Assembly: GCA_947044365.1 (NCBI GenBank)
Contig: OX345637.1
Span: 9,785,576 to 9,849,575 of the forward strand
Direction of reading: 5' to 3'
Length of the DNA: 64,000 nt
Origin: Petrosia ficiformis
Taxonomy: Eukaryota; Porifera; Demospongiae; Haplosclerida; Petrosiidae
The notes under the pieces: model-generated
The model's input: only the letters and a program-made list of their open reading frames with translations
What the model was told of the DNA's origin: nothing
Database searches by the model: none
Shown: positions 11,307-55,000 of the stretch, piece after piece
Layout of the letters: the number at the start of each line of letters is the position of its first letter
How positions within the stretch are numbered: the stretch's first letter is position 1
Translations under genes and position numbers: made by a program

Positions 11307-13607
11307 TCATTTAGGTATAGGGGATGTGTCAGTCATTTTAGGTGGTATAGGGGGAGGGGTCTGTGGCACCAGTTCGGAATAAATTGTTTTTTGTTGTTCC
11401 ATGGGAGCTGGCTGAATAGGAGCAGCCTTTGGTCTTGTTGAACCTATGTCTGCATAAAGTACCTCTCCTGGCTTCCTTTGTCTAGGTGGGCTTGGAGGAG
11501 GAAGGGGAGATGAGGATGTATCCTGTTGTAGAGATTGAGGATTCTTTTGTTTCATTGGTTGATGAACGTATCTGTTCTCTCGAAGCTTCATAGATTCCTA
11601 TGATGCATTATTTATCACAATACATTCATGTTATTAGGGTGTGATATGATCATATTACCTTGTCAACTACATTATCAGTAAGATCTAAAGTGGGTGAAAC
11701 TCTTCTCCTAAAATGTAATGTAACATATATTAGGTTATTGACAATTAATCAGTTGAAGTCAACTGACACTGTCCCATTTATTATTATATCTACAGTGTAT
11801 AACAGATGTCTCAATCAGCATGATTTGTATATGAAATTTCATTTGTTTTGAAGACATATATTATGTTCCTAATGGGCAATAATTATTATTGAGCATGCTG
11901 TCCTATATATGAAGACAAAACTAATCACTTAATCTGATTATACCTGGTTTACAATGCACAATGCTTGGTGATCCTGTTTGATTACAGTAATTAACAGGGA
12001 CTATCTCAATTGTATGATTCACTCCATATTGTAGTCCACTGAAAGATACTGAAGTATCAGTAGCATTAACAGTACAACTTCCATCAGAACATATACCAGA
12101 TACATTAGGGGTTGGCATGATCATAATATTATAAGATATGATGGGAACATCATTTGATGATATATTAGAGGATGTCCAGTTAAGTGTTGTCACATGACCA
12201 CATTCTTGTACTTCAAGGTTCTGAACTGCTGGAGGAGGTTCTGAAAGAGAAATAAAGAAATTTAAATTAAGTAAGACAATAAATTAAACCACATCAATTA
12301 ACCTGATTTAGGAATTGAAGCTTTGATTTCACACTCACAAATTTCAGATTTTAAAGTAAAACGGTAGTCATGTTCATTAATCATTAGTCTTGATATTGTT
12401 ATTGATGTATCAGTAGTATTATATACAAGATTCTATACATTCTCCACTAACAGGAGGTGGATCCGATGTAATATTATACAATGGATTATTGTCAGATGAC
12501 TCATCCCAACTGAGCATTACTGAATCACATGACAATACTTGAGGGACTAGATTACTACCACCTATAGAATACAAGTATAAGAACATTACAAATATATTAT
12601 AATTCACGGAATTGAATAAATCACTCATAATCTCTTACCAATACAAACTAGTTTGCTTGTATTAAGGTTGTAGTCTTTTCCGTGGGCGGATGCTACTCCA
12701 ATCAGTTTCTAGTCTTGCAAGCTTCTTGCTGCATACAATCTGGTTCCATTCCGTATTTTTTGGAAGCCACACCCACCCGGGGGTATAATTATTGGGCCTA
12801 AATGTTTTGACTGATTTATTTTCAGAAACAAACCTAAACACGCCCCACGGGTGGTGGGTGGGAAACAATGGCGGGTAACTGTAGTTGCTCTCTGAGAAAG
12901 ATCGGAGTTTGATAGTGCCTAGAAAGGTAGATTTTATGGTTTCAGTGAAAAGCTACAGAATTCAGCTTTCTTCAGCCTATTGTAACTATAAAAGTAAAAT
13001 GAATTTCCAGAAAACGGCTCTATTTGTTTTCTCTAAATGCATTGTACTTGGTGCGCGCACGCTATGATTGGTGGGCGTGGCTTTCTCCGTTTTGTACTTA
13101 TTGCGATTACAAAAATTGACATTTTATATATGTTCTTTCAATTCCAGGACCCTATAAAGGTGATTAGAAGATATGAAGGTTGCCATTACACCAGGTTAGA
13201 GTCATATTATATAATATTCTATTTTGAAACTGATTGGAGTCGCATCCACCCACTCCCTAGTACCACCTTAACTGATTCACTCATCTCTTGTTCACAAACA
13301 GATGCACCAAGTGATAGTATAATTCACATCAAATGTCAACTTATCAATAACATATGAAGTGTTATATGTAGTATAAGACTCTGAATCAATCTCCAAATGG
13401 TATTTTAATGTGTCCTCAGCTGCTCCAGTATATGAAAAAGGTTCCCATGTAATATTCAGTGCATCACATGATGGTAGTACTGATGTACTGAGAGATGTAG
13501 GGGGTGGTACATAACCTGTAAAATAATAATAATTATCAGCTGTCATCAAACAATAACAATAATTATACAATACTTAAAACCTTATTTTTTTCAATACTAT
13601 AATTTCC
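11307..13607 (-). pseudogene. Receptor F: decayed minus-strand copy of receptor G with ITIM-type tail exon
   Basis: Read 3' to 5': tail exon 11307-11597, small exon 11659-11707, and FN3 exons near 11944-12240, 12302-12560 and 12640-13517 (the last interrupted). The tail keeps a proline-rich run and two tyrosine motifs, VLYADI and TIYSEL. Damage relative to G: the acidic/membrane exon and the 28-nt exon are absent; there is a 4-base insertion in FN3-3 near 12420; a 602-base TTAA-flanked element sits inside FN3-2; a 2-base deletion lies near 13318; and homology stops at about 13607, so the first FN3, the Ig and the signal exons are lost. The sequence cannot encode a membrane receptor. Confidence 0.85.
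12666..13267. mobile_element. 602-base TTAA-flanked element (piggyBac-type MITE) inserted in an exon of F
   Basis: The intact copy G reads CTTGTATTAACTGATTC. In F the TTAA is duplicated (12662-12665 and 13268-13271) around 602 extra bases. The ends are imperfect inverted repeats of about 42 bases (GGTTGTAG... against GGTGGTAC..., both containing CTCCAATCAGTTTC). TTAA duplication with precise insertion is typical of piggyBac-superfamily elements. No transposase is seen, so it would be non-autonomous. Confidence 0.85.
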
Positions 13608-13628
13608 ATTTAACAAAAGTTAAAAAAC

Positions 13629-15023: not shown

Positions 15024-15365
15024 AGGATCAAATATTGTCTTTTCTTTTCAGTTCTTTTTGTTTAACTCTGTCACTCATAAGCCTAAGAGGCTGGACAACT
15101 TATGTTGTATATACACATATATGTGCGTGTATGTATATATATCAACTGTGTTGTGTGTGATTAATATAATTCAATTCAATATATATATATGGAACGCGGA
15201 TTGCGACAAAATTGAATTTAGTCGTGAAATCGATTTTATGAAATCGATTTTGTTAAAAAATCGATTTCATTTCACCAAAAAAGCGATGGATTCTATCTTT
15301 TCATTGATGCTCTTTAAATTAAAATATACGGTACACTAAGTCATTGATTGATTCAATGAAGGAAA

Positions 15366-18847: not shown

Positions 18848-19350
18848 AATACCAGAGCGTAAAGGAGTCATGATCTGTCGAGGTGGAGTAGAGATTGGTT
18901 TGCCTGGTTCGGTAAGTACTGATTCAATTTCAGGTATGACATTAAGGTGGTGACAGTTTCTCCTTACTTGACCACTGGGAGTATCGACCAGATATGATCA
19001 TGGAGTATCAACTGATGCAATTACACGTCTTGGTGTCAGTGACTTGTTGGAAGTAATCTATACTTTAGTTTCATCTGGAATAGGAGGCAATGAGTGGACT
19101 CTGTGATATCGATCATAGTATTGTTTTTGTTTTATTTTGAATTCATCGTTCTGCTCTCGAAACGTCTTCAAATATGGCCAACTGGGCTTCAACAATTCTT
19201 TGAGGTAGGTTGGTGCGTAGCTTCCTGCCCATTAGCAGTTCTGCAGGGATGAGATTGCACCAGTGGAGTAGAGTTGTGTGATAGTGACATGTACAGATCC
19301 TTTGAATCATTGAGTAGTCTTTTTACTATCTAGACAGCTCGTTCAGCATG
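18848..19350 (-). mobile_element. Gypsy (Ty3) retrotransposon remnant, end of polyprotein
   Basis: On the minus strand the stretch reads as the region just after a Gypsy integrase core: LIPAELLMGRKLRTNLPQR near 19200-19260, then a basic segment, LPPIPDETKV, and VDTPSGQVRRNCHHLNVIPE near 18950-18990. This is the usual C-terminal order in animal Gypsy elements. It contains several in-frame stops and frame changes, with no LTR recognised. Its left-hand limit abuts receptor I exon sequence with no intron border, so the insertion or a linked deletion removed the 5' half of I. Confidence 0.8.
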
Positions 19351-29900: not shown

Positions 29901-32900
29901 CAGACAAGCAAATCTCCATAATTAAAATGTAATATGTTCATTTACTCCTGTGGGAGAGGTGTACAACATATTCATGCATTTGCAAAGCAAGAAATAAGGT
30001 CTAAAATTTGCTTGGACATTAATGATTTTTGATTGGTCATGTAATGTATTGTGTATGTGATATAAGCAGACATTTGTTTAAAACGGTTGGAAATTGTCCA
30101 GTGACCAGTAGCTATTTCTTGCCCTGCATTTGGACAAGCCATTAGGTACAGTATATTATCATGGGTGGGGTAATAGATGAATATCATTAGGAAGTGAACC
30201 CACAATGATGCTGCACAATCAAGGGAATAAAGTGAAATACAATGAGGATGGTCATGCTCCTAGGATAAAGGGGCATGGACTCTAGGATCAACAACCACAT
30301 CCATGATAACATGCTATACCTGATGTCATTGTTTAACAGCCCACTTAGGAGGTTTACATTGTACACATACCATAGATATATATACTTATATATGTCCCGA
30401 TACGGCGAAACATCAAAGTAAGCCACAGGGATATATAGCACTGCGGTCAGCAGATATAGCACTGCGGTCAGATATAGCACCTGCCATCGAAACAGACTAC
30501 AAGAAAACAACGCTTACCTTCTCCAAAGTGCCGACAAAAAGGTAGGAGAAGCATCAGACATCAACAAAGGTTTTGTCTTTCGTGACATATATTGGTTATA
30601 TCCCGCTACTCGTGCAATATCAGATATATAATCGCCTTGCCCTCAAGCTACGCCCTCGGCCTTGGTGATTATATATCTGATATAGCACTCGTACCGGGAT
30701 ATAACCTATACGTAGAGGATTGTTATTGTAACTATTTGTTGCTAAGGGACATCTTGTTTGTATGCTGTTTCAGTTTAAATACTGTCCTGATCTTGTTTGT
30801 GTGGATTTTTAATATCCCTACACATTTTTGAAAATGTTTCACTAATCTTTCTATAATGTCATCTCCCTAGTACTCTTCAGATAATATACATCCTCCTGTC
30901 CTCCATTATGCTGTGGAACATAACATCACTGGTAGTGGAGAAGTCATTTTTCCGACAGACACAAATGTATCAATTATGATATCAATGTTAAATGAAGAAA
31001 ATATTTTCAGTATCAGTATTGCTGCTGTGAATATCATTGGCATTGGTCCTTATTTACATAAGAATGGTAAAAGAAGATTGTAATTTAGAATTGCTTTTAT
31101 ACTTAATATTCCAATCCTGTAGTCATTATTGTGATATCTCCAACAACGTCATCAATAGGTTTGTTAAATTCAGATATGTATATAATTGTATAGTACTTTA
31201 TCTGTTATATCAAGGTATTTCCAGTTCAGATGTTACTTCTCAAATCCATACTGGAATAACAGCTGATACATTGTCATGTACGTAAGTTAATATAACTGAA
31301 ACATAGCCAGGCCAAAATACATACATGATGAGTAGTTTTCAGTATTGCATGACAAAATATCTATCTCTATGAAAACAGAATGCTAATATTATAGTGTAGA
31401 AATGTATAGGCCCATCCCATCTGGGCAGTTATTTAAATCTAGGCATGTTGCCCCCTACATTGGCCAACCATACATTATTACTAAGGATATATTGAGAACT
31501 TTATTTGGAGTGTTTGTTTTTCATCACTTCTACTAATCCTGGAAGTGTACACTAGTTATCTCATACCATCCCCTCATCCATTCATAGTAAAGTTTATCAC
31601 TTTTATAAACTATTATGATAACTACGTATATAAACTTTTATTAGAACAATAGTACCTATTACACGAATTGTAAGAGTCTGAAAAGTTATACCGTATAGTC
31701 CTACATTTTGTGTTTTTCGTAAAAGCTAATGAACCATGAAATTTTTATTCACGAAAATAATAGTCACAACCACTACATGTGAGCATTTATGATGAACATG
31801 AAAATTTAAGCACAAAATAGTTGAATACTGTACAAGCACGAAAATTTTACCCACAGACATTTAGGGCTATACGGTATTGTAATTGAAATGTATGGCCAGC
31901 CCCATCCTTACATAGGGAGTACAATCATATTCTCTAATTATTAGATAGTCAAAACAAGTGCATGTTTGTCACATATGACATTTCATTTTTTAGCATCATT
32001 GATGAAATTTACATCAACATCATCAGTACAACCATCAAATACTGTGTGTGATCCATCACAATGTTCTATATCAACAGCCATTGGTCAGTTATAAAACTAA
32101 CTAATTCATAAATTAAATATTCCTTTTACACAGCTGATTCACACTAACGGGTAGTAGCACTACTACTTATTAGTGTGAATTGCATATTTGTGAATAATAA
32201 TGTGTTGGATACTCATTGTATCATGCTCATTTTCAAGCATATGTGTGTAGCTAGTGATAGTAGAACTATTGTAGTTGTAATGCTGCTCTTTGTTGAGAAC
32301 GAGTATGAAATAGGTAAAACTGTCCGAAGTTTGGGCGTGTCCGGAGTTACCCACGATTACCTTATACAGTAGAACCCTTCTATTCTGGACACACCTTTGG
32401 GACAAATATAAGTGTCCTGATTACAGGAGTATCCTCATTTCAGTGTCAGTGAATTTATATTATAAAGCACAGTTTGGGACATTTTTTAGTGTCCTTAATA
32501 CAGGGGTGTCCTCATTCCAGGGTGTCCTCAATAGAGGCGTTTCACTGTATATGTATCATACACGTTTGCATCCTCATAACCATTAGATCAATAAATGTAC
32601 ATGTAAATGTCATACCTTTATCCTCAGATAATGAATGTACTTGTGTGTCATCTTTGACGCCAACTGTGACTACATCTGTACTATCAACTTCATTTTCAAC
32701 ACCAACAACAACAACCACAGATGTAACTTCTACTATATACTCACAAACCCAAACTGAGGATATGTTAATGCTAACATCATTTATCAGCAGTATGACAATT
32801 TCCACATCACCCACTCCTGTAGTGTCAAATGAAACACCATCTTCTTCTACCCCATCTTCAGCAGTGTCTGTGAAGTACAGCATATCTCGTAAGTAAATGT

Positions 32901-33342
32901 AACTTGTGAATTTATTCTGTGTTATGATATTGTGTTTATTAAATACATAAAGAACAAAAAAGGCAACAGAGGAACAGACAGACACACAAATATATTTACT
33001 GGACAATGATTCACTAAGTTGATTAGCAGCAAATGTTTATTACAAAACATGATTTTTCAATCTATAACCTTTTTTAAGTGTTGAAAAAATGTCATAAACC
33101 AAATCTTTGTGTTTTGTAATAAATATTTGCTGCTAGAATCGTTGTCCAGTAACTTAATATAATAAATATATTCATACAATCACTGTGACTGTGGATGACA
33201 ACTTTTGTTGTTTGGACTACCACAAAATACTGTCAGACACACAAATAGACAGATAGAAAATGAACTCATTGACAAATTCATTATTATTTTCTTTATTACA
33301 GTTGGAGCCATACTTTTGATTGGATTGCTAATTCACTTATAA
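26985..33342 (+). CDS. Receptor C: Ig + 2 FN3 protein with hydrophobic C-terminus and no tail
   Basis: Ten exons: 26985-27051, 27644-27976, 28342-28620, 28774-28844, 30871-31066, 31123-31158, 31215-31277, 31994-32083, 32628-32888, 33302-33342. The sum of 1437 nt closes in frame (478 residues). The first eight are clear counterparts of B (same lengths and phases, one 3 nt shorter). B's membrane/tail exon is missing: at the expected acceptor (about 32133) unrelated sequence with a small inverted repeat occurs. Splicing can continue in phase to a Ser/Thr-rich stalk exon (DNECTCVSS...) and a tiny last exon encoding LGAILLIGLLIHL and a stop. A short hydrophobic end after small residues and no tail is what a GPI-anchor signal looks like. 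A short type I anchor or a broken gene are alternatives. The first eight exons are firm, the last two plausible. Confidence 0.65.
27229..27533. mobile_element. 305-base MITE in the first intron of receptor C
   Basis: Inserted relative to B. The ends are near TGGGTGATTTGATACC and GGTATCGCCCACCA, short imperfect inverted repeats. AGATGAATA flanks it on both sides (27220-27228 and 27534-27542), an 8-10 base target duplication as made by hAT or Mutator-type elements. Confidence 0.7.
30385..30720. mobile_element. Inverted-repeat insertion in the large intron of receptor C
   Basis: About 330 bases absent from the matching intron of B (near 5490). It contains tandem copies of TATAGCACTGCGGTCAG and a foldback whose arms (30595-30635 and 30670-30710) share GGTTATATCCCG and GATATATAATC in opposite sense. 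No gene. Confidence 0.65.
32367..32547. mobile_element. 181-base pogo/Tigger-type MITE in receptor C
   Basis: Begins CAGTAGAACCCTTCTATTCT and ends with a near complement (AGAGGCGTTTCACTG), flanked by TA on each side. CAGT ends plus TA duplication are typical of Tc1/mariner-pogo derivatives. The internal words TCCTGATTACAGG also occur at 2650-2670. It sits between the vanished membrane exon and the replacement stalk exon. Confidence 0.65.
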
Positions 33343-33536
33343 ATGTACAATATCATAGTTAATGTCATACCTGTATTCTTTGAATCAGTTTGAGTATATA
33401 CATGCACTGGTGTTAAATGTATTTCATTAACAATTAATACGTATGTATTATTATTATTGTTATAATTATAATTATTATTTCTTGTGGTTAAATGTTTAGA
33501 CACATTACTGTATGGTCCCATGAAGTTGTTCATATA

Positions 33537-33624
<88 letters not shown>

Positions 33625-34970
33625 TATGTATATTTATATAATAATTATACTGATGTAATTAATATAATGTGAGTACTAAATGTTTAAAATATCATTAATA
33701 CTGTGTACATAATTATAAACATAGTTAGGATGTTTATGACATGTTGTGGCTTTGAAAGGAAAGGAAAGGGACGAACAGTTGTCATGAATATTATCATCAT
33801 GATTAATAAACAAATTCATAGTCATTACAAACAACAAAAACATCTCATGTTACAGTTACTATGACAACAAATTAGGGTCTGGAAGTTATTAAATTACTAG
33901 TTCCAGTAGAATATAAGCTTAGGTCTGAGTCTGAATCTGTGTGTATGGAATTGAGTCATACACTACAATTATAAAAATAAATAAGAACATAAGACTACTC
34001 TGTATGTAAACAGCTTGTACATACATGTGGGAATAATAAACATTTTTACATCAATAAAATAGTGCTAGTGAGCCATATAATGGATTGAATATTTTGGGTA
34101 AAAAAATAGCTTCATAATTATGTATAGAATAAAAGATCATAATAATATAATAGTTGCATTACAAATTAGTGACTTAATGTCCATAAAAGGTTCTGATCTG
34201 CTTACAAATGCAAAGTACTTATTTAGTATGCAATTGATTATACATCATGTATACATGCATTACCAAACATTATAAATATATTTTAGCTTTTTTTTTCAAT
34301 AATGTATTATAATTATAATATAATAACAATATAAAAATTTCTGTTGATCGCATAAAACTATTAATTTTCATAGATTTTCATTTTGTACATGCCTAAAAAA
34401 CTGCTTTTATTTCTTGTGTATTGCGCATAACATTAATTTTATTAAATTTTTTTTCTAAAATTAAAATTGCTGAGTGTAACTACTAGTCACTGAGCAGTAA
34501 TTACGATGATTCTGTAAACAAGTCTACATTTGCTTAGAAAAGTAAACTCATAATTAACTCCAGTATGGGAAGTAGCTAATGTCATAAAGTATTGTAAAGT
34601 ACTGAAGCTATTGTATATTAGAATGAAAACAGATTCATCATTATAGTCAAATGGGATATGTATATTTTTGTAATCTAAATGTAAACGTATTCTTGAATAG
34701 AACAAATTGTATATAAACCAACTATACTATGACGACTGAGTAATGAATAACATACAAATAATACCAAACAATTGAATGATGGGAGGAAGAAAAACAGAAT
34801 ACACACTTGTGATGTTGGATATTCGTCATTGGTAAGTTAAATTTCTGTAAAAATATTATAATCAATTTTATAATTCTAGATGCTAATCTCCAGTGTATAC
34901 CATTTCATCGTGATCGTCAAAATACTGATCTAACATTTTCAACACATTGTCAAGTATACATATCATAATT
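33343..34970. other. Intergenic DNA between C and E with a long (AT)n tract
   Basis: A (TA/AT)n microsatellite runs from about 33530 to 33622 with one AATT interruption. The rest is AT-rich without genes. Confidence 0.7.
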
Positions 34971-37247
34971 ATGAAGATTTTCTATTTGATCTTCTCAGTT
35001 TTATTATTCATTAGTAAGTGATATCAATATATTGAGAGTTATGATTGTATTATTGATAAAGGGTCCAAACATTCAATTCACAGAATGCATTGTGATCTTC
35101 CTACATAATGTTATAGATGCTTATTACCATGTTGTAATAATTCAGTGGAGTCTTTTATTGAGCCTTATTAACACGATAGAATTTTCTTTATTAATAAAAA
35201 TTTATGAATAAAAACTAAACATTTTAACCCATAGGTCTTCTTCAGCACGAATCAGCAATAGAAGACCTTTGGGTTGAAACATTCAGTTTTAATTCATAAA
35301 TGTTTATTAATAAAGAAAATTCTACCATGTTAATAAGGCTCAATAAAAAAACTTCACTGAATCTTCCTACATAGTTTATTATATGCATGATGTGATAGTT
35401 AATAATTTATAATAATGTCTGTTTATATTCTCAGGTTGTTCACATGGGACAGTTGTTCAGGTTAATTGTACAAGTGATTTGTGTCCTCATGAAACAGCAA
35501 CATACTCATGTAAAGTAACAGATGCTACTTGGATTAAATGGTTAATTCAGAGAGGACCTGATATTGATGCAGCATTGCTCAATTCTAATAGTTATTTAGG
35601 CGATACAAATTCAATTGAAGGTCTAACTATGACCTTAGTTAGTAAAACTGGTGGACTTACTGCTACTGCAACTTTTAAGATGACACTTGATGTTAATAAT
35701 ACTTCAATATTATGTGATGATGAATTTATTAGTATACCTGATCCTAATGATGGATGCTATGTTGCCCTACAAGGTGAAATTAGTTTCATTATCCATAGTA
35801 TTATATATATCGAATTCTTATGTCAATATAGATTTCAGTGTTCCTTCACCTCCTACTAACATCACTATACAATACATTGATGATACCGGTATTAGTTTAG
35901 CTTGGTCACCTCCAACAAAACACAGTAAATGTGTCACAGGCTTCAGTATTAATGTTAATAACACAATTAATAATGAAGTAAAAACATATAAATCAACCAG
36001 TGGTCAAATTAATGTGAATGGGTTGACAGCTGGTGTCCAATACTTAGTAGTCATAGCTGGTATTGACAAGGGAGAAAGAGAAGGTGAAAATGGATATCTG
36101 ACATTTCAAATAGGTATGAAAAAATATCTTTGCATCATTGTAATACAGTATATAATTGTATACGTATCTCAATTAATATCGCTATAATACATAAATGCAC
36201 TAATATATTTTATCCCAAATGCTTCTTTAACACCAACTGTAACAACTACAACTATACTATCAACTTCATCATCAGAACAAACTAATCCAGCTATGTCTGT
36301 CTCGTCAACTTCATCATCATTGACATCAATACAAACTATTACAGCTACAACTACATTCATACCACCAACAACACCACATAAAACCACTACATCTCTACTG
36401 TCAAATACCTATTCACAAAATCAAACAGAAAATACTTTATATGCCACATCAACTTCAATGCCAAAGGATGGTACTTCTTTTTATTTTCGTGAGTGAAAAT
36501 GAATAGAACTATTCTGTATTTCATTATCAACTCATTAACATGCATTCACATACATATGAATAGATCATGAAAATCCTCTTATAAGCTATCTAAAACTTCT
36601 TTTGTTACATTTAAATCACTAGTACATATGTGTGGCACTACCTAAGATCTAGGATGTTAGGTCCATATAAGGTCATGGGGTTCTTAATGGTTTTTAGTAT
36701 ACCCACTTAATGTTCAAATCCCAAAACAATAACATGTATACAAGTGCCCGATGAATAGCCACTACAAGTGAAACACAAAACATTGTCACTAGTGAATGTA
36801 AATAAAAGCAGAGATTTTTATCCATATACAATAATACATTATATGTAGTATGAAGTAAATAGTTATAGCTTTCGATATCAATAAATAATTATTATAATAA
36901 TTATAATTTCTAGTGGTATAAAATTATGTGTTGATGCAAAATTCATTAACATTTTAATCAGCTACCATATTCACAATTAATGGCTATATCTTGTCCAAAT
37001 ACTTCAATCATAATTTTATATCCATTTTGTCAGTAAACCACAAATATCACCAACATAATAACTATTATGAATACATTATACTGCAGGCATTGTTATACCA
37101 TTGGCTGGATCTTTCACGCTACTGGCAGCTGTTGTAATTATCATGTTCATTGTGAGTCTCGTTATATATAAGAGGAGTAAGCGAAAGTCAAATATCGACC
37201 TAACAACTACTACAGCTGAGGAAACATCAGAACTAAAAAACTGTTAA
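34971..37247 (+). CDS. Receptor E: Ig + FN3 membrane protein with truncated tail
   Basis: Exons 34971-35013 (signal peptide, IFYLIFSVLLFI), 35435-35773 (Ig; VNCTSDLCPHETATYSC and TSILCDD), 35832-36113 (one FN3), 36291-36488 (Ser/Thr/Pro stalk), 37087-37247 (membrane segment and tail). The sum of 1023 nt closes in frame (340 residues). Two oddities against copy D. First, the stalk exon's original acceptor (CCCAAAG in D) is CCCAAATG here, so I use an in-phase AG 60 bases downstream. Second, one extra A in the tail (GAACTAAAAAAC) shifts the frame to TAA at 37245-37247, removing the only tail tyrosine (MYEAP). The extracellular part is intact, so E may still reach the surface but without that signalling motif. 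Confidence 0.7.
35140..35362. mobile_element. 223-base MITE in intron 1 of receptor E
   Basis: Both ends read ATTCAGTG(G/A)AGT inward, and complementarity continues for about 90 bases (TTATTGAGCC, AAGAAAATTCTA). It is absent from D, so it inserted after the D/E duplication or was lost from D. Confidence 0.75.
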
Positions 37248-39095
37248 TAACATGTATGAAGCTGCAGCTCAACAAAAAAACACACAAATTACCGAATTTA
37301 AAGTGCTGCGGACAAGCAATTATTAATAAGTGATATATTGTCACAATGTTCTTTTTGAAAGTAACTTCTAATAATGTTTTGTTATGGAAAATTACATTTA
37401 GTCACTTCAACGAAAGGTCTCATGAACACTTCTTTATAGTTATTTCTATTAAACATATTGATATTGTAGACTAAACACTGTGATAGCCTTAACTATATAT
37501 TTTGTAAAGCACACAAACTCATTTCATTAATAGATACACTGCAAAAATAATATTGTTTAAATAACTAATTTATTGGTTAGTATAGTTACAAGGAATAGTG
37601 TAAATTGTAATTTAATTGGTCGAGTAGGTTGTTATGACTACATGGTGATATATGTACTTGTACTAATTATAATCTAATTGCAATGTCCTTATCTTGTCTA
37701 ATAGATGTACAAAGAAGCAGAATAACTATTTTAATTAAATCATTGTAGATTTCCAAACCTTCGTTTTACATCTAATGTGAGATATGAGACATAATAATTG
37801 GTACAAGTATGTTATCATGACAACATGAATCACTTATTAAATTATAATTTGCACCCTTGTAACTGCACTAACCAATACATTTGTTATTTTAACATTTTAC
37901 TGTATGCAAACATTTACACTTAATAAATATAATTATTATAATAGTGTGTGTATTGGTATTATCTTTCATTACTTATTACTTATATCATATACCATTGCAG
38001 TAATATTATTAACCCTTGTCCATATAGGTGGAGCAAGTTACTGTAATCATATTGTCTGTCTGTCTGTTCTATGTTCATTTAATGATAATTTAAACACTGA
38101 CAACATTGTGTCATATATAAAATACTCTGTGAAGTCATTTTAGCATAATTATAATAATTATAATATACATTGTATATTGTTAATTGCTATTGCATGTATT
38201 ATTGTGTTCATATGATTTATGCACACAAGCAGATTCATAGTGGCTTCATTATTTTCACTTAATTTGGCTATTTTTTATTGAACAAAAAAACATTATTTGT
38301 GTACATTACATATTATGTCAACTTGTCTTGTTATCTTGAAAGTTAGCATACGTTTAACTGTATGTGTACATACATTTCTAGACATGTTTACAAAATTGTT
38401 CTACATGAGCTAAAAATATATTATTTGCTACTATAAAACAATAACAACAACTGATAATGAATCATTTATATACTGTATATACATTTTGACTCACATTCAG
38501 ACCCAAATACTTTTCACAATGGAAGTTTCACTAGACCCTGTCAGTACTGTCATGGCAACCAATTGTTTGTAGTAGTCAACTGGGTGGCCCCATGACATTG
38601 CTGCACTAATAATAAATATTGTTATCTGATTAAAGGACAATGATATTCATGACAAGTGTTAATCCCTTTCCACATTATTAAAGTTATAAAAACAGTTACT
38701 ATTAGTACATACACAAGTACAGTATTAAACATGACTTTCAACATGTATGAGTTCTGCCCAATAATAATTATTTAACGTGACCACATGATGAAACTTGAAT
38801 AAACATTTTCACTACTGTTTATTAAAAGTGGGATATCAATCATAAACACATAATATGACAGTTATTAGGAAACTAAAAGTGAAGTGTCATGTAAATTAAC
38901 AATTTACAAAGCGTAACTAACTAATTATCAATACGAATATAATGTGGATTTCAAACTAAAAAGAGACGATAAGCTATATAATCACTGTGATATATGTAAT
39001 TATAATCACAAAGAAGTACATGTAATAATATGTAACACTAAAATGTACCAAATAAGTATTTGTAGCGACCATGACATGAGTGTGTCTGCATCATG
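37248..39095. other. Intergenic DNA between convergent E and G (copy of 9539-11306)
   Basis: Aligns end to end with the D-F spacer, apart from small insertions and deletions. No gene seen. Confidence 0.6.
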
Positions 39096-42000
39096 TCATT
39101 TAGGTATAGGGGGTGTGTCAGTCATTTTCGGTGGTATAGGGGGAGGAGTCTGTGGCACGAGTTCGGAATAAATTATTCTTTGTTGTTCCATGGGAGGTGG
39201 CTGAATAGGAGCAGCCTTTGGTCTTGTTGAACCTATGTCTGCATAAAGTACCTCCCTTTGTCTAGGTGGGCTTGGAGGAGGAAGGGGAGATGAGGACATA
39301 TCCTGTTGTAGAGATTGAGGATTCTTTTGTTTCATTGGTTGATGAACGTATGAGTTCTCTCGAAGCTTCATAGATTCCTATGATATATTATTTACCACAA
39401 TACATTCATGTTATTATAGTGTGATATGTATTACATGATCATATTACCTTGTTGTCTACATTATCAGTAAGATCTACAGTGGGTGAAACTCTTCTCCTAA
39501 AATATAATGTAATACGAGAAATACAAATCAATTATTAGGTCAATTAATCAAATGAAGCCAAATAAGACACTGTACATATCACCCATTTATAAAAGAGCTG
39601 ATTGGATGTTTCAATTAGCTATAGCTTGATTTGTATATAGACTCTATATAAAATTTCATTTGTTTTTTGCTGTTCATATAAATAAAATAATAATCATTGT
39701 TTTGAGACATGTTCCTAATGAGTAGTATACATTACATTAAGAAAAATTAATTGTACAATGTACAATTGTAATATCCAGGAACATGTTTGGCTTCTATGAA
39801 GTATAACACAATCATCTAACAGCCTGCAGAACATCTATAATCAGTTTAATTGCCACTATAAATTTGAAACACTATGCTATAAAAGGGTCACAAAATTTAC
39901 ACTCATACAATATCGCATCATGATATTTAGATGTACATGTATAAGGCAAATTAAAAACACGAACCAATCAAGTTGTTTGAAGCAACAAAAAATGTCTTAC
40001 AGTCTAACTGGTCTGCTTGGTTGTTTATTTGTTATCTGTTCTTCTGTCTGTCCATCTGTCTGTCTGTCCATCCATCTGTCCGTCTGTCTGTCTGTCTGTC
40101 TCTCGATTTGTCTTGTTGCTTTCTACTTACTTGGGCTTTCTTTCCTCTGCCGCCATACCTAAAAAGTTACAAACATTAAAACATGTAAGAGTAACACAAA
40201 TTATAACATTAACACATTTATTATCTACAAAATGGAACACTAACCTCTCTTATGACAATAATAGCATAATGAAATAAAGAGAACCAGAGCTACTAATAGG
40301 AAACCTCCACAACCTCCCACAATAATCCATACAAAAACTTTAATATCATCATCAGCCTCGTCTTCGTCATCTTCATCATCATCTAGAAAATAATATTCAT
40401 TTAACAGAAAATCTATAAATTTGTTGTTAGTTTGATACTGTACCTTGCATTGGTTTGCAATGCACAACTTTCGGGGATCTTGTTTGATTGCAGTAATTAA
40501 CAGGGACTATCTCAATTGTATGATTCATTCCATATTGTAGTCCACTGATGGATACTGAAGTATCAGTATTATTAACAGTACAACTTCCATCAGAACATAT
40601 ACCAGATACACTAGGGGTTGGTGTAATCATAATGTTATAGGATGCGATAGGAACATCATTAGATGATATATCAGGTGATATCCACTGAAGTATTACACTT
40701 TTTGTTGCATTATCACATTCTTTTAGTTCAAGATTCTGAATTGCTGGAGGAGGTTCTGAAAAAAAAAAAAAGAATTCAGAAGTTAAAATTAAGTAAGTTA
40801 AACCACATTAGTAATTAACCTGATTTAGGAATTGATGTTTTGATTTCACATTCACAAAATCCAGACTTTAAAGTAAAATTGTACTCACGTTCATTAATCA
40901 ATAATCCTGATATTGTTATTGATGTATCAGTAGTATTACAAGATTCTATACATTCTCCACTAGTAGGAGGTGTAATAATATACAATGAATTATTATCAGA
41001 TGTCTCATCCCAACTGAGCATTACTGAATCACATGACAATACTTGAGGGACTAGATTACTACCACCTGTAGATTACAGGTATAAGAACATTATAACTATA
41101 ATTATTCATAATAATACATCATGATAATTTTAAAATAACGTTATATATATATATATATAATAGCTTACCAATACAAATTAGTCTGCTTGTATTAACTGAT
41201 TCACTCATCTCTTGTTCACAAACAGATGCATTAAGTGATATAGTATAGTCCATACCAAATGTCAACTGATCAATAACATATGAAGTGTTATATGTAGTGT
41301 AAGACTCTGAATCGATCTCCAAATGATATTTTAATGTGTCCTCTGCTACTCCAGTATATGAAGAAGGTTCCCATGTAATATTCAATGCATTACATGATGT
41401 TAGTACTGATGTACTGAGAGATGTAGGGGGTGGTACATAACCTGTATAGAAATATATTATAACACCATTTCTATATCATTACTTATACTTACCAACACTT
41501 AAAACCTTAGTTTCTGTATTAGAATAATTTCCATTACCAGCACAGTTAATAGCCTTCACTCTTATACTGTAGCTTACACTATACTGTAGTTCAGTGAGAA
41601 TATAGAAACTGTTATTTGTATTACATGTTCCTCCTATACAACTCCCATCCTCAGGGGGTGGTTCAACATCTATCATATATTTCTCAACATTGATCTCATC
41701 ATCTTCACTGTCATATACCCATGAAACATTCAAGGCATGACAATTAATAATTGATGTTGACATGATAATAGGGACATTAGATGGTGGATCTGTATAAAGA
41801 AGCAGTAGTATAACACATAAACACACATTATAATACTTGTAAAAGGTTTTACTTGTAATATGAATTGTACAGTTTTTGTTGTCCTCAGTACTCCCTCCAT
41901 CAGCACATTTGATAATCCATTTATCAAGTGATTCATTTGCAGTGAATTGTATTTCAGAAGTAACTCCATTATTATCATCAGTAAACACTACTGTGAAGTC

Positions 42001-42314
42001 ACCATTAGTTTCAGAAGCACCCTTTGAATTAATTCCTAAAGGCAGTATTGTTGACACAGTGAATCCTAATGGATCACTACCACTATAAGGATAAACACTC
42101 CAAATAAGTGTAGGTGATGCAACACTACAAGTGAAAGTTACTTCACTACCAGGACAGGAGGAATTACTACATGTGAAAGATATACCTAAGAAATTTTGCA
42201 AAAAAAAAAAAAAGAGGGCATCATCAGTTATTAATCATCAAAAATATTCATGTTCTTACCTTCTATTTCATGAAAAATACCAAGAGCGCACAGAATAGTG
42301 AAGAGCAACAACAT
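39096..42314 (-). CDS. Receptor G: Ig + 4 FN3 receptor with two ITIM-type motifs
   Basis: Ten exons on the minus strand: 42314-42260, 42185-41853, 41789-41493, 41441-41169, 41065-40820, 40755-40444, 40382-40245, 40158-40131, 39496-39448, 39377-39096. Total 2013 nt, exactly 670 codons plus stop. Order: signal peptide (LLLFTILCALGIF, about 1-18); Ig domain (about 19-129, CPGSEVTFTC, LIWSVYP, WIIKCADGG); four FN3 domains (about 130-505), each one exon; an acidic DDDEDDEDEADDD stretch next to one membrane segment (about 518-545); a tail of about 120 residues. The tail has a PLPPPSPPR segment, VLYADI (Tyr near 622), IIYSEL (near 647) and PPPIPPK. Both tyrosines fit the ITIM consensus (S/I/V/L)xYxx(I/V/L), 25 residues apart. 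By family logic this is a candidate inhibitory receptor recruiting SH2 phosphatases; that function is inference. The 28-nt and 49-nt exons rest on phase closure. Confidence 0.85.
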
Positions 42315-44187
42315 TGTTATAGTCTACAAATGGGTGGAGCTATCGGATTTAAAGAGATGACCCTATATTTTGCTGCTATTATTTTCTTATTTATAGTTAA
42401 CAAGTCTTCAGGTAAGTTATAGTTACTAATTTGTTTCCTGAATTTTAAACTTTTGTACAGGTATATCTTTCACATGTAATAATTCCTCCTGTCCTGGTAG
42501 TGAAGTAACTTTCACTTGTAGTGTTGCATCACCTACACTTCTATTCAGTGTTTATCCTTATAGTGGTAGTGATCCATTAGGATTCACTGTGTCAACAATA
42601 CTGCCTTTAGGAATTAATTCAAAGGGTGCTTCTGAAACTAATGGTGACTTCACAGTAGTGTTTACTGATGATAATAATGGAGTTACTTCTGAAATACAAT
42701 TCACTGCAAATGAATCACTTGATAAATGGATTATCAAATGTGCTGATGGAGGGAGTACTGAGGACAACAAAAACTGTACAATTCATATTACAAGTAAAAC
42801 CTTTTACAAGTATTATAATGTGTGTTTATGTGTTATACTACTGCTTCTTTATACAGATCCACCATCTAATGTCCCTATTATCATGTCAACATCAATTATT
42901 AATTGTCATGCCTTGAATGTTTCATGGGTATATGACAGTGAAGATGATGAGATCAATGTTGAGAAATATATGATAGATGTTGAACCACCCCCTGAGGATG
43001 GGAGTTGTATAGGAGGAACATGTAATACAAATAACAGTTTCTATATTCTCACTGAACTACAGTATAGTGTAAGCTACAGTATAAGAGTGAAGGCTATTAA
43101 CTGTGCTGGTAATGGAAATTATTCTAATACAGAAACTAAGGTTTTAAGTGTTGGTAAGTATAAGTAATGATATAGAAATGGTGTTATAATATATTTCTAT
43201 ACAGGTTATGTACCACCCCCTACATCTCTCAGTACATCAGTACTAACATCATGTAATGCATTGAATATTACATGGGAACCTTCTTCATATACTGGAGTAG
43301 CAGAGGACACATTAAAATATCATTTGGAGATCGATTCAGAGTCTTACACTACATATAACACTTCATATGTTATTGATCAGTTGACATTTGGTATGGACTA
43401 TACTATATCACTTAATGCATCTGTTTGTGAACAAGAGATGAGTGAATCAGTTAATACAAGCAAATTAATTTGTATTGGTAAGATATTATATATAATTACA
43501 TTATTTTAAAATTAATCATGATCTATTATGAATATAGTTATAATGTTCTTATACTTGTAATCTACAGGTGGTAGTAATCTAGTCCCTCAAGTATTGTCAT
43601 GTGATTCAGTAATGCTCAGTTGGGACGAGTCATCTGATATTAATCCATTGTATATTATTACACCTCCTATCAGTGGAGAATGTACAGAATATTGTAATAC
43701 TACTGATACATCAATAACAATATCAGGATTATTGATTGGTGAATCTGGATACACTTTTACTTTAAAGTCTGGATTTTGTGAATGTGAAATCAAAACATCA
43801 ATTCCTAAATCAGGTGAATTACTAATGTGGATTGACTTACATATAATTTTAACTTCTGAATTCTTTTTTTTTTTTCAGAACCTCCTCCAGCAATTCAGAA
43901 TCTTGAACTAAAAGAATGTGATAATGCAACAAACAGTGTAATTCAGTGGATATCACCTGATACATCATCTAATGATGTTCCTATCATATCTTATAACATT
44001 ATGATTACACCAACCCCTAGTGTATCTGGTATATGTTCTGATGGAAGTTGTACTGTTAATAATACTGATACTTCAGTATCAATCAGTGGACTGCAATATG
44101 GAGTAAATCATACAATTAAGATAGTCCCTGTTAATTACTGTAATCAAACAGGATCACCGAAAGTTGTGCATTGCAAACCAATGCAAG
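40444..44187. repeat. Large inverted repeat (palindrome) containing the G and K ectodomains
   Basis: Left arm 40444-42185 and right arm 42461-44187 flank a non-matching centre of 275 bases. Five exons and their introns correspond in order (333, 297, 273, 246 and 312/309 nt). Near the centre the arms are almost identical, introns included. Further out, amino-acid differences appear: several in FN3-3, and one codon indel in FN3-4. Homology ends before the membrane exons. Confidence 0.9.
42186..42460. promoter_or_regulatory. Shared 5' region of divergent genes G and K
   Basis: The start codons (42314-42312 minus; 42330-42332 plus) are separated by 15 bases. If K starts at its second in-frame ATG (42357), 42 bases remain. 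Any core promoter must overlap the signal-peptide exons or lie in the first introns, or unseen 5' non-coding exons exist. No TATA box is evident between the starts. Co-expression of both receptors, or mutual interference, would be expected. Confidence 0.6.
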
Positions 44188-44569
44188 GTGAGCAACTGTA
44201 CATATGTAATCCATCACTTTCAGTGGAAATAATAATGAAGCATATAATTATTGCTATTTTTCCTTAGACTTGGAAGATTCTACTACTAGTACTGAAAAGA
44301 CATCCTGCATTAGTATTGGTGTTTGTGCTGGTATAGCAGTCACACTATCTTTGTTTACAGCAATTCTAACAGCATCCATTACCAGTATGTTGATGTGGTA
44401 TGTGTGCATTAGATATAAAAACAGAAACAAGCAAACAAATAACAATATGACAATGATTCCACAACCAATGTATGAAGAAATATCATCCACTTCTAATAAA
44501 CAACAAGACATTCAAATGAGTAGTAATTTAGCTTATGGACCAACTAACATAACTGCAAGACCTTCATAA
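42330..44569 (+). CDS. Receptor K: Ig + 4 FN3 receptor with YEEI tail, divergent partner of G
   Basis: Seven exons: 42330-42411, 42461-42793, 42857-43153, 43205-43477, 43568-43813, 43879-44187, 44268-44569. Total 1842 nt, in frame (613 residues; 604 if the second ATG at 42357 is used, which gives a better signal peptide, TLYFAAIIFLFIV). Ig (about 28-138) and FN3-1 are almost identical to G; FN3-2 to FN3-4 diverge progressively. The last exon is unrelated to G: membrane segment (about 522-550, VTLSLFTAILTASITSM), then a tail with PMYEEI (an ideal Src-family SH2 ligand once phosphorylated) and LAYGPT, like the AYG motif of A, B and H. It ends 58 bases from convergent gene L. The Ig tryptophan strand reads LLFSVYP instead of LIWSVYP. 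It could be an activating or adaptor-coupled counterpart of G; function is inferred. Confidence 0.85.
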
Positions 44570-44627: not shown

Positions 44628-45923
44628 CTAATTGTTCTGTTCCTCTTTGGAAACTGTATTCTGATTCGCTTCTTTAAATTCTTTGGTGTCAGATTCATTT
44701 ACCAATATTTGGAATGAGTTCTTGTCCATTGTTTTCATATCACATAGAGGGGGGGATGAGGTCATATGTTGCTGATGGTTTGAGTGGTGTATATATTTGG
44801 TTGGATGTTTTTTATAATGACAATAACAAACTATTAAGAAAATGAAAAATACGAGAGCAACTAGCATAGACAGGATCCCAATAACGATAATGTAAGCTGG
44901 ATGAATGGATGAAAAATTAATGATAAATGATACATTATAATTATTTAAGGATGCTGGATTGATGGATGGCAAATGATTAATGGACAGGATCAATGGACGA
45001 ATGGATGCATGAATGGATAATTGATATTGATGAATGGATTTTGAGAGAGCAGACAGATGGATGGATGCATGATAGTTTTTTTTTGTGTAACCATTTGCCA
45101 CAAAGAAAAGCTGATCATTGTTACATGATGATGACATACCAACTTCACTTGTTGGGACTGTATTTTTAGAATGTGTAGTAGTCTGGGTGGGACTGCTGCT
45201 AGTACTGTTCTGAAGATAGTATGAGGAAGAGAATGGGGTAGATAAGGCGGGGAAAGATGAGGGAGAGGATGTGACGTAGGAATTTATATATCCAGTTGTC
45301 GATGAAGAGACACTTGAAGTGACACAGGTAGTATCATATACTAGTGAAGGTGAGATATTAACAATGGAACTATAGACTCCAAAGTCTACAGAGGAACTAA
45401 TCATAGGGGTGTCTTCGTTTGATATTTCAACTATTATTGTATTTAGTTTATTACAGTTCTCATTATAACAATAACACCGATAAGGACTATTATAGATATC
45501 AGAGATAGATGAACGCTGAAAAAAACTAGAGCAATTTGGTGATACAGAGATCATGATTTGACCAAACTGTGCATAGATCGTATCGCAAGTATCACCATAG
45601 CTAAACTGAATGTTTGTTGCTAATAATGTCCAGGTTCCATTAAAGAAATTTAAGTGATACAAACAAACACGAGGAAGATCTGGTGGAATATCAACAACAG
45701 AACAATTATCATCTATATCCTCACAGGATATTTCATAGTGATGCTCTGATATATTCTTAACAACACAATCAATTTGTTGACTATAAGACCCAAAAGTTCC
45801 TATTGTAGCACACTGCATACATTTTGTGGCAGTGCAATTACTAAAATCATTAGTTCCTTGAGACAATGAAGAGAAGACACAAACGAACAAGATAACAATG
45901 ACCACCATTTGACATACAGTCAT
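44628..45923 (-). CDS. Gene L: single-exon membrane protein with cysteine-rich (three-finger-like) ectodomain
   Basis: One 431-codon reading frame. Signal peptide about 1-23 (VVIVILFVCVFSSLS). A cysteine-rich domain about 28-170 starts with CTATKCMQC and ends CYCYNENCNKL. A closing C-x-C-x4-CN is typical of LU/three-finger and activin-receptor-type ectodomains, though the spacing here is long, so this is a suggestion. Then comes a Ser/Thr-rich stalk (about 175-270) and a low-complexity stretch rich in Ile, His and Ser (about 275-335) encoded by ATGGATG-like repeats. One membrane segment follows (about 344-367, YIIVIGILSMLVALVFFIFLIV) and a basic/polar tail of about 60 residues. No introns, unlike all neighbours. 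It is convergent with K and divergent from the HEAT gene. No kinase domain, so it is not itself a TGF-beta-type receptor kinase. Confidence 0.75.
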   Translation of the reverse strand: MTVCQMVVIVILFVCVFSSLSQGTNDFSNCTATKCMQCATIGTFGSYSQQIDCVVKNISEHHYEISCEDIDDNCSVVDIPPDLPRVCLYHLNFFNGTWTLLATNIQFSYGDTCDTIYAQFGQIMISVSPNCSSFFQRSSISDIYNSPYRCYCYNENCNKLNTIIVEISNEDTPMISSSVDFGVYSSIVNISPSLVYDTTCVTSSVSSSTTGYINSYVTSSPSSFPALSTPFSSSYYLQNSTSSSPTQTTTHSKNTVPTSEVGMSSSCNNDQLFFVANGYTKKNYHASIHLSALSKSIHQYQLSIHASIRPLILSINHLPSINPASLNNYNVSFIINFSSIHPAYIIVIGILSMLVALVFFIFLIVCYCHYKKHPTKYIHHSNHQQHMTSSPPLCDMKTMDKNSFQILVNESDTKEFKEANQNTVSKEEQNN

Positions 45924-46069
45924 TTTCTCTTTCTTAGAAGTATTTGTAAGGTATCAGTTGGCATACTTAAGTACAAGTATAGAGTAGTGAATCCCTTCAT
46001 CTGCATGTGCGGGTGTTAAAAAAGTTAACCCATACTATGAGTATAGGCCCTATAGTAAATTTATCAAAA
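45924..46069. promoter_or_regulatory. Short divergent intergenic region between L and the HEAT-repeat gene
   Basis: Only 146 bases separate the two presumed start codons, so the promoters must be compact or shared. No clear TATA box. An earlier in-frame ATG for the HEAT gene at 46037 would shorten it to 113 bases. Confidence 0.5.
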
Positions 46070-52000: not shown

Positions 52001-55000
52001 CCATCCCAACCATGGGAGAAGAGTGAAGGGTAACTATTATATATTGAGCAGTAATTCATTGAATCAACATAATGTGTTTATCAGGTATGGGACAAACACT
52101 TCAGTGCTTGTGCTTAAAATTTTTAGAAGTGCTTCAAGGTGCTTAGAAGTACATCTGCACTTGTTCTTGTTCTTATGTAGTTCATGCTTGTTAACCACTT
52201 TTTCAAGCACTATTAAGCATCTTTATCTAGTATCAGCTCACAATCTGTTTACTTTCTTGATTTTGTGCTTAAGCACTCTATTCATGCCAAATAATAATGT
52301 ATAATATACATGTACACTGTAAGTGTGCTTGTACTTGTGCTTCAACCACTAAGGTCAGTGCTTGACCCCATGCTTGGTGTTTCGGTCAGTGCTTCACCCC
52401 ATGTTTGGTGTTCAGGTCAGTGCTTGACCCCATGTTTGGTGTTTAGGTCAGTGCTTGACCCCATGCTTGGTGTTTAGGTCAGTGCTTGACCCCATGCTTG
52501 GTGTTTAGGTCAGTGCTTTACCCCATGCTTGGTGTTTATTGTACATGTAGTTCAAACACAACTGTCTTTTTCCAAAGTGCAGAAAGTAGTGCTGTTTGTA
52601 GCGATCCTAACCAGTATTTTTGATATCTTTTGAAGCATGGCCCAAATTGGCTCAAACATGGTTAGTGTGTGCGCCATTGAGAATACATCTTGAGCCAATT
52701 AATTAAGAGTTAATGCTATTAGTGATAATATAATTGCACCATCTGGCCGAAAGAGAGAACTGTGCAGCGCCAAATAAGAAGTTCTTTGGGCCAATGGTGT
52801 GCCATATGAGCCTATCAAAAACTCTACTACTAATCTTTTCATCAGTACATGCACTCTGGAAAGAAGCACTGATCGATGTTTTAAACTTCACCAGCGTTTT
52901 TATTTTGGTGTAGCAGTGATCTGGTGATGAAGCTGTTGATTGAAAGGGTAATGGTTCCATCCCATCCATCAATACTGCTTTCTGCTCTCTGGAAAAAGAC
53001 ACTGGTTACATTTGAACTTATAATAAAGTACTATCTATAGCATGATTCTAATAAGTAATAAAATATTATACCAATATCATCTATGTTCTACTGTCACTAC
53101 ATGTGTGTTCTATATTGCATGGTCATTACAACACAAATGCTATTATTTACTCACATGGTGTATACATGTACTATGATTAACCTATTAATTTAAACCTCTT
53201 TGAGCAGTAGATTATTCAAATTTTTAGCGCTAAAATACTACTTAATGTAAAATTAATACCTGCTAATAATAGTCTTATTATTTTTATTCAGGTGTGTTTA
53301 TCTCTTAGCTGAATTGAGTCAGTTGAAACAGTGTCATGATAATGTATTATCGCTACTACCTGTTTTGGCTGATACTACAAGACATAAACATTATATTCAA
53401 CATTACAACTACTTTGAAACTATAGTAAAACAGGTTAGTGAAACAAGTTAGTGAGGTGTGTATACATTATAATAAATATAGTTTATATGCATGAAGATTA
53501 ACTTTAGAGTTCAGTTAATTTGGTATAATTGTCCATCACTGCTTACTAATATTCATTCTTTTTTTTAACGTAAATCAGTAACTTATTTAGCAGTGAATTC
53601 TCAAGAAGTAAAATGGTACACTTAATATTTGTGTTGGATAAATAAACAGAGCTTTAAAAGACATGTACAGCGTACTGTTATATGTGGCATAGTATTAATG
53701 AGTTGGAGTAGTAATCCAAGATAATGACTACAGTACTGTCCACATAATAATAATTAGTGGGAGTGGTAATCCAAGATGATGACTACAGTACTGTTACATG
53801 TGGCATAATATTAATTAGTGGGAGTGGTATTCCAAGATGATGACTACAGTACTGTTACATGTGGCATAATATTAATTAGTGGGTGTGGTAATCCAAGATG
53901 ATGCATGACTACAGTACTGTTACATGTGGCATAATATTAATTAGTGGGAGTGGTAATCCAAGATGATGACTACAGTACTGTTACATGTGACATAATATTA
54001 ATTAGTGGGAGTGGTAATCCAAGATGATGCATGACTGACTACAGTACTGTTACATGTGGCATAATATTAATTAGTGGGAGTGGTAATCCAAGATAATGAC
54101 TACAGTACTGTTACATGTGACATAATATTAATTAGTGGGTGTGGTAATCCAAGATGATGCATGACTACAGTACTGTTACATGTGGCATAATATTAGTTAG
54201 TGGGAGTGGTAATCCAAGATAACGACTACAGTACTGTTACATGTGACATAATATTAATTAGTGGGAGTGGTAATCCAAGATGATACATGACTACAGTACT
54301 GTTACATGTGACATAATATTAATTAGTGGGAGTGGTAATCCAAGATGATGTATGACTACAGTACTGTTACATGTGGCATAATATTAATTAGTGGGAGTGG
54401 TAATCCAAGATGATGACTACAGTACTGTTACATGTGACATAATATTAATTAGTGGGAGTGGTAATCCAAGATAATGACTACAGTACTGTTACATGTGGCA
54501 TAATATTAATTAGTGGGAGTGGCAATCCAAGATGATGACTGGAGAGATTGAGTGATTGTCCTGAGGACAAGCTAAAACTTTTTTGGTTGTCCCAAAGTGA
54601 AAAATGATTGTCAGGACATGTAGACAAGTGCCAATTTCAAGCCTTGTGCATAACTATATTATACTGCAGATGAAAGGAGGGGCCCCATTTGGTAAATACT
54701 TACCTATAAACATTTGTTACATTGTACATATTACCCATCAAGAATAAGAAAAGGGTCAACCACAATGATAATATAATATGTAGTAACTGAGTGGGCAAAA
54801 ATGGTGCTTTTATGTATGAACACCGATCACACTTTTTCTCAATAACTAAAATCCTGTATTAAACCTGTAGTGTACATGATACTGCCTACAATAGTTTGTA
54901 TGACTGATGTTGAAATATATCTTGCATTCATGTAAATTTCAAATTCAAGAGTTGATTGTATTGTCATTTCAATACATTGTGTTTCTCACATGACATATTT

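Follow-up and report, generated by a model that had tools for sequence, protein, structure and literature searches.

Near-identical ectodomains and unlike tails in a head-to-head pair of candidate sponge receptor genes

We analysed a stretch of 64,000 nucleotides (nt) on chromosome 2 (C2) of Petrosia ficiformis, hereafter the window (C2:9785576-9849575 of assembly odPetFici3.1, a genome of 191,215,263 bases), in which two adjacent genes, G and K, are modelled as divergent genes for type I membrane proteins. An earlier note, made from the letters of this DNA alone, had remarked that it looks like that of a sponge, and its source is indeed a demosponge of the order Haplosclerida. The same note had likened the two genes to the paired receptors of vertebrates, with one ligand-binding surface and opposite signals. 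Positions below are those of the window, unless they are given with a chromosome or described as lying on C2.

The G and K genes and their common cassette

G lies on the minus strand, from 42314 down to 39096, with 10 exons for 670 amino acids, and K on the plus strand (42330-44569), with seven exons for 613 amino acids. All introns in both models are of the GT-AG type, and the ectodomain introns of both genes are all in phase 1. The genes diverge, as the earlier note stated, from start codons 15 bases apart (42314 on the minus and 42330 on the plus strand). The span it gave for the pair, 40444..44569, holds the two genes but omits the membrane and tail exons of G (39096-40382), including those with both of its inhibitory-type motifs. 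Comparison of the window with itself gives inverted arms at 40442-42187 and 42459-44189 that are 96.5% identical over 1749 columns, separated by a spacer of 271 nt (42188..42458) that contains both signal-peptide exons and any common promoter. Because the start codons are only 15 bases apart, the 5′ ends must, on these models, have a common or overlapping control region.

The modelled exons of G run from a first exon with the start codon and a signal peptide MLLLFTILCALGIFHEIEG (42260..42314) through an Ig-like exon with a Cys19/Trp28/Cys93 pattern (exon 2, 41853..42185) to four FN3 exons: FN3-1 (exon 3, 41493..41789, called by the Pfam fn3 profile), FN3-2 (exon 4, 41169..41441), FN3-3 (exon 5, 40820..41065) and FN3-4 (exon 6, 40444..40755). 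Exon 7 (40245..40382) encodes an acidic stalk and the membrane segment FVWIIVGGCGGFLLVALVLFI, and is followed by a predicted juxtamembrane exon (exon 8, 40131..40158), a predicted tail exon (exon 9, 39448..39496, with a like stretch, 76% identical, at 11659-11709 in a second copy in the window) and the main tail exon (exon 10, 39096..39377, 94% identical to 11310-11597 in that copy), which carries the motifs VLYADI and IIYSEL and the stretch PPIPPK. An additional G exon at 40001-40075, proposed by the gene finder, was rejected because of its position within or next to a TCTG repeat.

K begins with its own start codon and signal peptide MGGAIGFKEMTLYFAAIIFLFIVNKSSG (exon 1, 42330..42411). Pairwise comparison identifies its exon 2 (42461..42793) as the twin of the Ig-like exon of G, with Phe in place of Trp, and the gene model, compared with G, places FN3-1 to FN3-4 in exons 3 to 6 (42857..43153, 43205..43477, 43568..43813 and 43879..44187). 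Exon 7 (44268..44569), supported by the gene model and a tail search, encodes the membrane segment and a tail of the class here called K-type (PMYEEISST...NLAYGPT).

Exon 2 fits an Ig fold by its Cys/Trp pattern and by a predicted all-beta model. In an alignment of 14 related Ig exons Cys19 and Cys93 are invariant and Trp28 is present in 13, K being the exception; the best of five predicted models of the G domain has nine strands, a mean pLDDT (predicted local distance difference test) score of 77, and C19, W28 and C93 each within a strand, while the other four models score 57-65. Profile methods are less telling: a Pfam scan called no Ig domain in G, only one of the 14 related exons matches PF00047, at an expect value (E) of only 0.03, and a profile search of solved structures with the Ig exon returned one antibody heavy chain only, at E 0.071. 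The FN3 domains score 75 bits in G and 67.8 bits in K with the Pfam fn3 profile (cut-off 25), in three stretches each. A protein database search with G yielded 6506 candidates, none at E 0.001.

Followed outward from the start codons, G and K are unrelated in exon 1 (36% nucleotide identity) and intron 1 (54%), then 98.5% identical in exon 2, 100% in intron 2, exon 3 and intron 3, 99.3% in exon 4, 92% in intron 4, 93.9% in exon 5, 93.7% in intron 5 and 95.8% in exon 6, and unrelated again from intron 6 onward (intron 6, 47.5%; exon 7, 46%). The earlier note had described the Ig and first FN3 exons, introns included, as near-identical inverted copies; this was right as to identity but too short in extent, the cassette in fact comprising the Ig and four FN3 exons. 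Its statement that signal peptides, membrane segments and tails are unrelated agrees with the values for exons 1 and 7. Exons 2-4 (98.5-100%) account for four amino-acid differences, namely three in the Ig domain, none in FN3-1 and one in FN3-2, and exons 5 and 6 (94-96%) for 16. In total, 46 mismatches and six indels separate the two genes from exon 2 to exon 6, and a likeness of 1.7 kb at 96% is not due to chance. At the acceptor edge of exon 2, 49 of 50 nt are identical inside the exon compared with 20 of 50 in the adjoining intron, and at the donor edge of exon 6 the corresponding counts are 47 and 15; the boundaries of the cassette are the splice acceptor of exon 2 and the splice donor of exon 6. 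We also note that four of the five nucleotide differences in exon 2 (K 42463-42792) fall within 8 nt at the Trp/Phe site.

A single recent inverted copy is disfavoured by these edges, because both breakpoints would need to fall exactly on splice sites. Such edges are expected from conversion, because homology ends before exon 2 and past exon 6, and the splice-site-bounded cassette favours gene conversion between two older genes with non-homologous outer exons: conversion could pass through the short inner introns and stop where the homology of the outer exons ends. The competing account is the ordinary birth and death of adhesion receptors, in which the G ectodomain exons were recently duplicated in inverted orientation and joined to a K-type tail; the likeness would then be a sign of youth and not of selection, and the pair would have no function as such. 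The nonsynonymous (dN 0.022) and synonymous (dS 0.037) divergence of the ectodomains over 481 codons is compatible with youth, and the surrounding cluster is rich both in duplications, including copies about 28 kb apart in the window, and in broken copies. However, the drop in identity between exons 2-4 and exons 5-6 and the abrupt ends at splice sites argue against it, as do the recurrence of head-to-head pairs in other subfamilies and of two tail classes over related ectodomains (described below), and we consider this account rather unlikely. If conversion between older genes is the correct reading, G/K may be a natural case of exon-bounded concerted evolution.

Long-read assemblies are known to contain false palindromes with short spacers, and an inverted pair such as this could in principle arise from a fold-back or a haplotype misjoin. 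We regard this as very improbable here: the arms differ by the mismatches and indels counted above, end at splice sites and run into two different open membrane/tail exons, and seven other pairs have the same layout. In addition, the assembly was built from HiFi reads at about 25x coverage and Hi-C, with a quality value (QV) of 62.8, according to the consulted part of PMC12648040.

Cytoplasmic tails and a candidate reader

The tails differ in their tyrosine motifs in the manner that the earlier note described, with two motifs of the ITIM type (immunoreceptor tyrosine-based inhibitory motif), VLYADI and IIYSEL, in exon 10 of G and a YEEI motif, within PMYEEI, in exon 7 of K. Both G motifs have the strict form, and two strict ITIMs are reached by 0.8% of 20,000 shuffles of the tail; the count of looser YxxI/L/V motifs, reached by 15% of the shuffles, is not unusual. 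In a single comparison the G tail shows weak similarity to an ITIM-rich tail encoded elsewhere in the C2 cluster (40% over 43 residues at E 2e-5), the alignment bringing both tyrosine motifs into register.

The K tail, with PMYEEI and NLAYGPT, is a distant member of a K-type tail family, for which a genome search gave 25 rows at E 0.1 with a best non-self match of 4e-5. In a ten-row alignment of such tails P-x-Y is invariant and N-x-A-Y-G is present in seven.

In other animals, paired ITIMs are read by the tandem-SH2 phosphatases SHP-1/2. A gene of this domain order is present at C14:54079-55581 (plus strand), where SH2 (54079-54306), SH2 (54397-54624) and PTP (54847-55581) domains lie in a single uninterrupted frame of 576 amino acids, with no introns between the three. 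A second set of SH2 and phosphatase domains is found at C18:634554-637335.

The tails could also differ for reasons of trafficking or adaptor binding (N-P-x-Y-like and YxxP/YxxI sites) and not for inhibition versus activation, G and K then being parts of a general system of adhesion or allorecognition. In favour of this, tails of the K type have N-x-A-Y and YDxP/YEEI-like sites and lack an ITAM (immunoreceptor tyrosine-based activation motif), solved structures matched by FN3 exon 3 include Titin, Dscam, Contactin-1, NCAM2 and DCC (7 rows), and sponge members of the Ig superfamily are described as mostly adhesive and as acting in cell recognition, as set out in the consulted part of PMC11999971. 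Against it stand the strict ITIMs of G, which exceed what shuffling gives, the ITIM-rich tails elsewhere in the cluster and the SHP-like reader. We consider it an unlikely account, if one to be taken seriously.

The chromosome 2 cluster and the case for a receptor pair

A genome search with the Ig exon of G gave 49 rows at E 0.1, of which 45 fall in the 8.7-9.83 Mb interval of C2. Including G/K, and counting broken ones, there are 18 head-to-head pairs on this chromosome. Because G and K served as the training set of the gene finder, its models of the other genes are rough, with doubtful extra exons in several of them.

In the FSCDAELC-type Ig subfamily, at 9.14-9.29 Mb, all 14 strong exons (of 22 rows) form seven minus/plus head-to-head pairs, P1 to P7, with 384-686 nt between the Ig exons; one minus exon contains a stop and one plus exon matches only from residue 14. 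The rough models of P7 and P6 follow the G/K plan, i.e. common Ig and FN3 exons with unlike membrane/tail parts. The signal peptides differ too in P7, and the plus member of P6 was modelled with no signal-peptide exon. The minus partners have membrane segments different from those of the plus partners, and tails that look short or ambiguous. They were considered as ITIM receptors and rejected, since IKYSSV appears in some frames but the exon models conflict. In vertebrates, activating receptors that couple to adaptors have an arginine in the middle of the membrane segment; a central arginine also occurs in the membrane segment IAGIAVVIVIIIVVRIIIFFV of the minus partners of P2 and P3, near-identical duplicates whose models are uncertain (C2:9148411-9148508 and C2:9155660-9155757, minus strand). 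Strong K-type tails (PMYEVVENI...NPAYGPVQ) number 16 among 36 rows, every one of them on the plus strand. With only seven FSCDAELC-type plus Ig exons available, at least nine of the tails must come from elsewhere.

Identity of the Ig exons within pairs is, from P1 to P7, 98.1, 91.2, 92.3, 96.9, 99.1, 95.4 and 88.1%, and the mean for partners of 94.4% compares with 91.5% for other minus/plus combinations and 91.7% for exons on the same strand. Only 14 of 5040 re-pairings match the within-pair mean, and only one of 5040 does so when 900 nt from the start of the Ig exon are compared; this test is not independent of history, however, because the pairs are tandem duplicates. P2 and P3 in particular are recent duplicates of each other (minus Ig exons 99.7% identical), and in P4 the likeness of the arms stops after about 315 nt. 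Gene conversion is supported in part by these comparisons, that is, for some FSCDAELC-type pairs and not for all.

A second subfamily, the LQC type, is represented by 20 strong Ig exons at 9.34-9.77 Mb (50 rows in total; 2 of the 20 with a stop). For half of them (10/20), an Ig exon of the FISPES type lies within 1.6 kb in head-to-head orientation, with ectodomains about 40% alike. We measured the distance from each strong LQC-type exon (E 5.3e-25 or better) to the nearest same-strand tail downstream, using 10 of 35 FISPES rows, nine ITIM-tail places from 45 exon rows and 36 K-type tails; rows of lesser strength were excluded, as were those at 7.3 and 10.1 Mb. By this criterion of distance, the nearest tail is ITIM-rich and within 4.3 kb for five exons, and K-type and within 4.7 kb for 13; for the remaining two it lies 6.8 and 16.9 kb away. 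Models read through from the LQC-type Ig exon at 9393205 on C2 to an ITIM-rich tail, and from those at 9673769 and 9578535 to K-type tails. The modelled ITIM-rich tail (exons 9396115-9397612) has nine YxxI/L/V motifs in 249 residues, a number reached by none of 20,000 shuffles, and three strict ITIMs, reached by 1.5%. The ITIM-tailed Ig exon at 9618307 and the K-tailed one at 9578535 are 93% identical in protein, and the contrast of ITIM and K-type tails over related ectodomains is, on these models and distances, a recurrent one in the cluster.

We lean, with modest confidence, towards the view that G and K form a paired-receptor unit within this cluster, made alike outside by conversion and given different outputs by unlike tails. 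The architecture itself, with an inhibitory-motif side, is well supported at the level of the predicted proteins, and here the earlier note holds up: near-identical ectodomains are encoded by two adjacent genes, the tails are unlike, one side has ITIM-type motifs, and an SHP-like reader is encoded in the genome. From the few amino-acid differences in the Ig, FN3-1 and FN3-2 domains we infer the same ligand-binding surface for both proteins; one of the Ig differences is the change of the near-invariant Trp to Phe in K. G and K would then bind one ligand through their membrane-distal domains. Binding would lead to phosphorylation of the G tyrosines and recruitment of the SHP-like phosphatase, which would damp the signal, while K would recruit other SH2 or PTB proteins via PMYEEI and N-x-A-Y, with an output that is different and probably counteracting. 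Conversion confined to the homologous exon cassette, together with selection for matched binding, would keep the pair alike outside and unlike inside.

Several results weigh against this view. The Ig domain of K has Phe where a near-invariant core Trp is expected. A genome search with the ITIM exon of G found only G and its decayed copy below E 0.09, and G is absent from the matches at E 0.01 in a genome search with the ITIM-rich tail. In a motif scan, K has neither an ITAM nor a strict ITIM in its tail and no charged residue in its membrane window, and the opposite signals claimed in the earlier note are not supported: an activating role for K is a guess. K was also considered as an ITAM receptor and rejected, no ITAM having been found in its tail. 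Among the minus-strand partners of the seven FSCDAELC-type pairs no ITIM exon was identified in the rough models, so these need not be ITIM/K pairs. The closest Ig relative is the own partner for both members in three of the seven (P1, P4 and P5) and for one member in P6. When 900 nt from the Ig start are compared, copies on the same strand but from different pairs are on average slightly more alike than partners (89.2% versus 88.1%), a point that also counts for birth and death. Finally, the FISPES-type Ig exon has in-frame stops in five of the ten LQC/FISPES pairs, which, with the likeness of only about 40%, makes these pairs older or decaying.

Extended to the whole cluster, the idea of a receptor pair becomes that of a sponge locus resembling the natural killer (NK) complex, spanning more than 1 Mb of chromosome 2, in which conversion-homogenised Ig/FN3 ectodomains are joined either to an ITIM-rich, SHP-recruiting tail or to a tail of the K type, in many cases under a single bidirectional control region, such that one ligand would give two opposed signals. 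We offer this as a tentative proposal that we can entertain without yet expecting it to be correct. If true, pairs of balanced ITIM receptors would date back to the origin of animals, or would have been reinvented in sponges.

Other features of the window include a partial, decayed copy of G on the minus strand about 28 kb away (11310..13573), which retains the ITIM exon (11310-11597), although its second motif, TIYSEL, fails the strict form. Its FN3-2 and FN3-3 exons are broken, and no Ig exon or whole FN3-1 exon was found (Ig by tblastn at E 1e-3 in window positions 1-20000), for which reasons it was rejected as a second working pair. The copy belongs to a duplicated segment (5504-13610 and 30733-41535) whose two versions are offset by about 25-28 kb and are 85-91% identical in their longest pieces; on the far side of this segment, a gene at 15.8 kb occupies the position of K as partner. 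There, on the plus strand (15859-21960), an Ig/FN3 ectodomain has two tails downstream of it, the nearer a K-type frame (17958-18230) and the farther an ITIM-rich tail with a truncated stalk repeat (20424-21960); these may be alternative 3′ cassettes of a single gene or belong to two genes. Tail to tail with K, a 441-codon open frame on the minus strand (44631-45953) has a signal-like start, a Cys-rich part, a Ser/Thr-rich stretch and a hydrophobic segment, and is another receptor candidate. A tandem repeat array with units of about 60 nt, about 90% alike by self-comparison, occupies 53672-54540.

Significance and known systems

Pairs of inhibitory and other receptors are a hallmark of NK and myeloid control in vertebrates. 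The sponge cluster, which may serve allorecognition, the sensing of symbionts or pathogens, or adhesion, supplies concrete genes, and its head-to-head twins and two classes of tail, together with an SHP-like reader in the genome, offer a route to asking whether balanced tyrosine-motif recognition dates to the first animals. ITIM-type recognition receptors have been reported from a tunicate and a cnidarian, according to the consulted part of PMC12065747. In the open-licence literature we found, among the titles listed, no report of ITIM-type or paired receptors in sponges, which is a weak negative as most subscription papers fall outside that scope; Ig genes of two other sponges are described in PMC6208332, and the portion of its text at hand does not contain the term 'ITIM'.

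Among invertebrate systems, compared here through partial texts of the cited sources, the aggregation-factor system of sponges is a candidate for self/non-self recognition (PMC12065747) as well as for cell reaggregation (PMC11999971), but it is an extracellular proteoglycan complex (PMC11999971), unlike the Ig/FN3 receptor pairs. The Alr genes of the cnidarian Hydractinia, likened by description, resemble the C2 cluster in that 41 Ig-superfamily genes are clustered in one complex and candidates among them carry ITIM/ITAM motifs; head-to-head pairs with twin ectodomains are not mentioned in the consulted parts of PMC12065747 and PMC11999971. The fester and FcoR genes of the chordate Botryllus (fuhc receptors), also likened by description, are clustered receptor pairs too; they encode type I Ig receptors whose tyrosine motifs are of the ITIM, hemITAM or core type, and some of the loci exchange one motif for the other through alternative splicing. 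However, FcoRs combine V-type Ig, sushi and C2 Ig domains, and the pairs consist of an FF member and an FcoR member (PMC12065747).

The nearest known system in organisation is human SIGLEC11/SIGLEC16, as presented in the consulted part of PMC5701461: the genes are head-to-head, their extracellular exons are highly similar, the similarity is maintained by gene conversion, and one receptor is inhibitory and the other activating. The two differ from G and K in that they lie about 9 kb apart, compared with 15 nt between the start codons here, in that Siglec-16 uses an ITAM adaptor (PMC5701461) whereas K shows no such handle, and in that the protein database search gave no match to G at the threshold stated above. 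We do not file G/K in the vertebrate paired-receptor family, because K fails the defining feature of an activating partner. By analogy, nevertheless, the pair works like one of these in its layout and on its inhibitory side.

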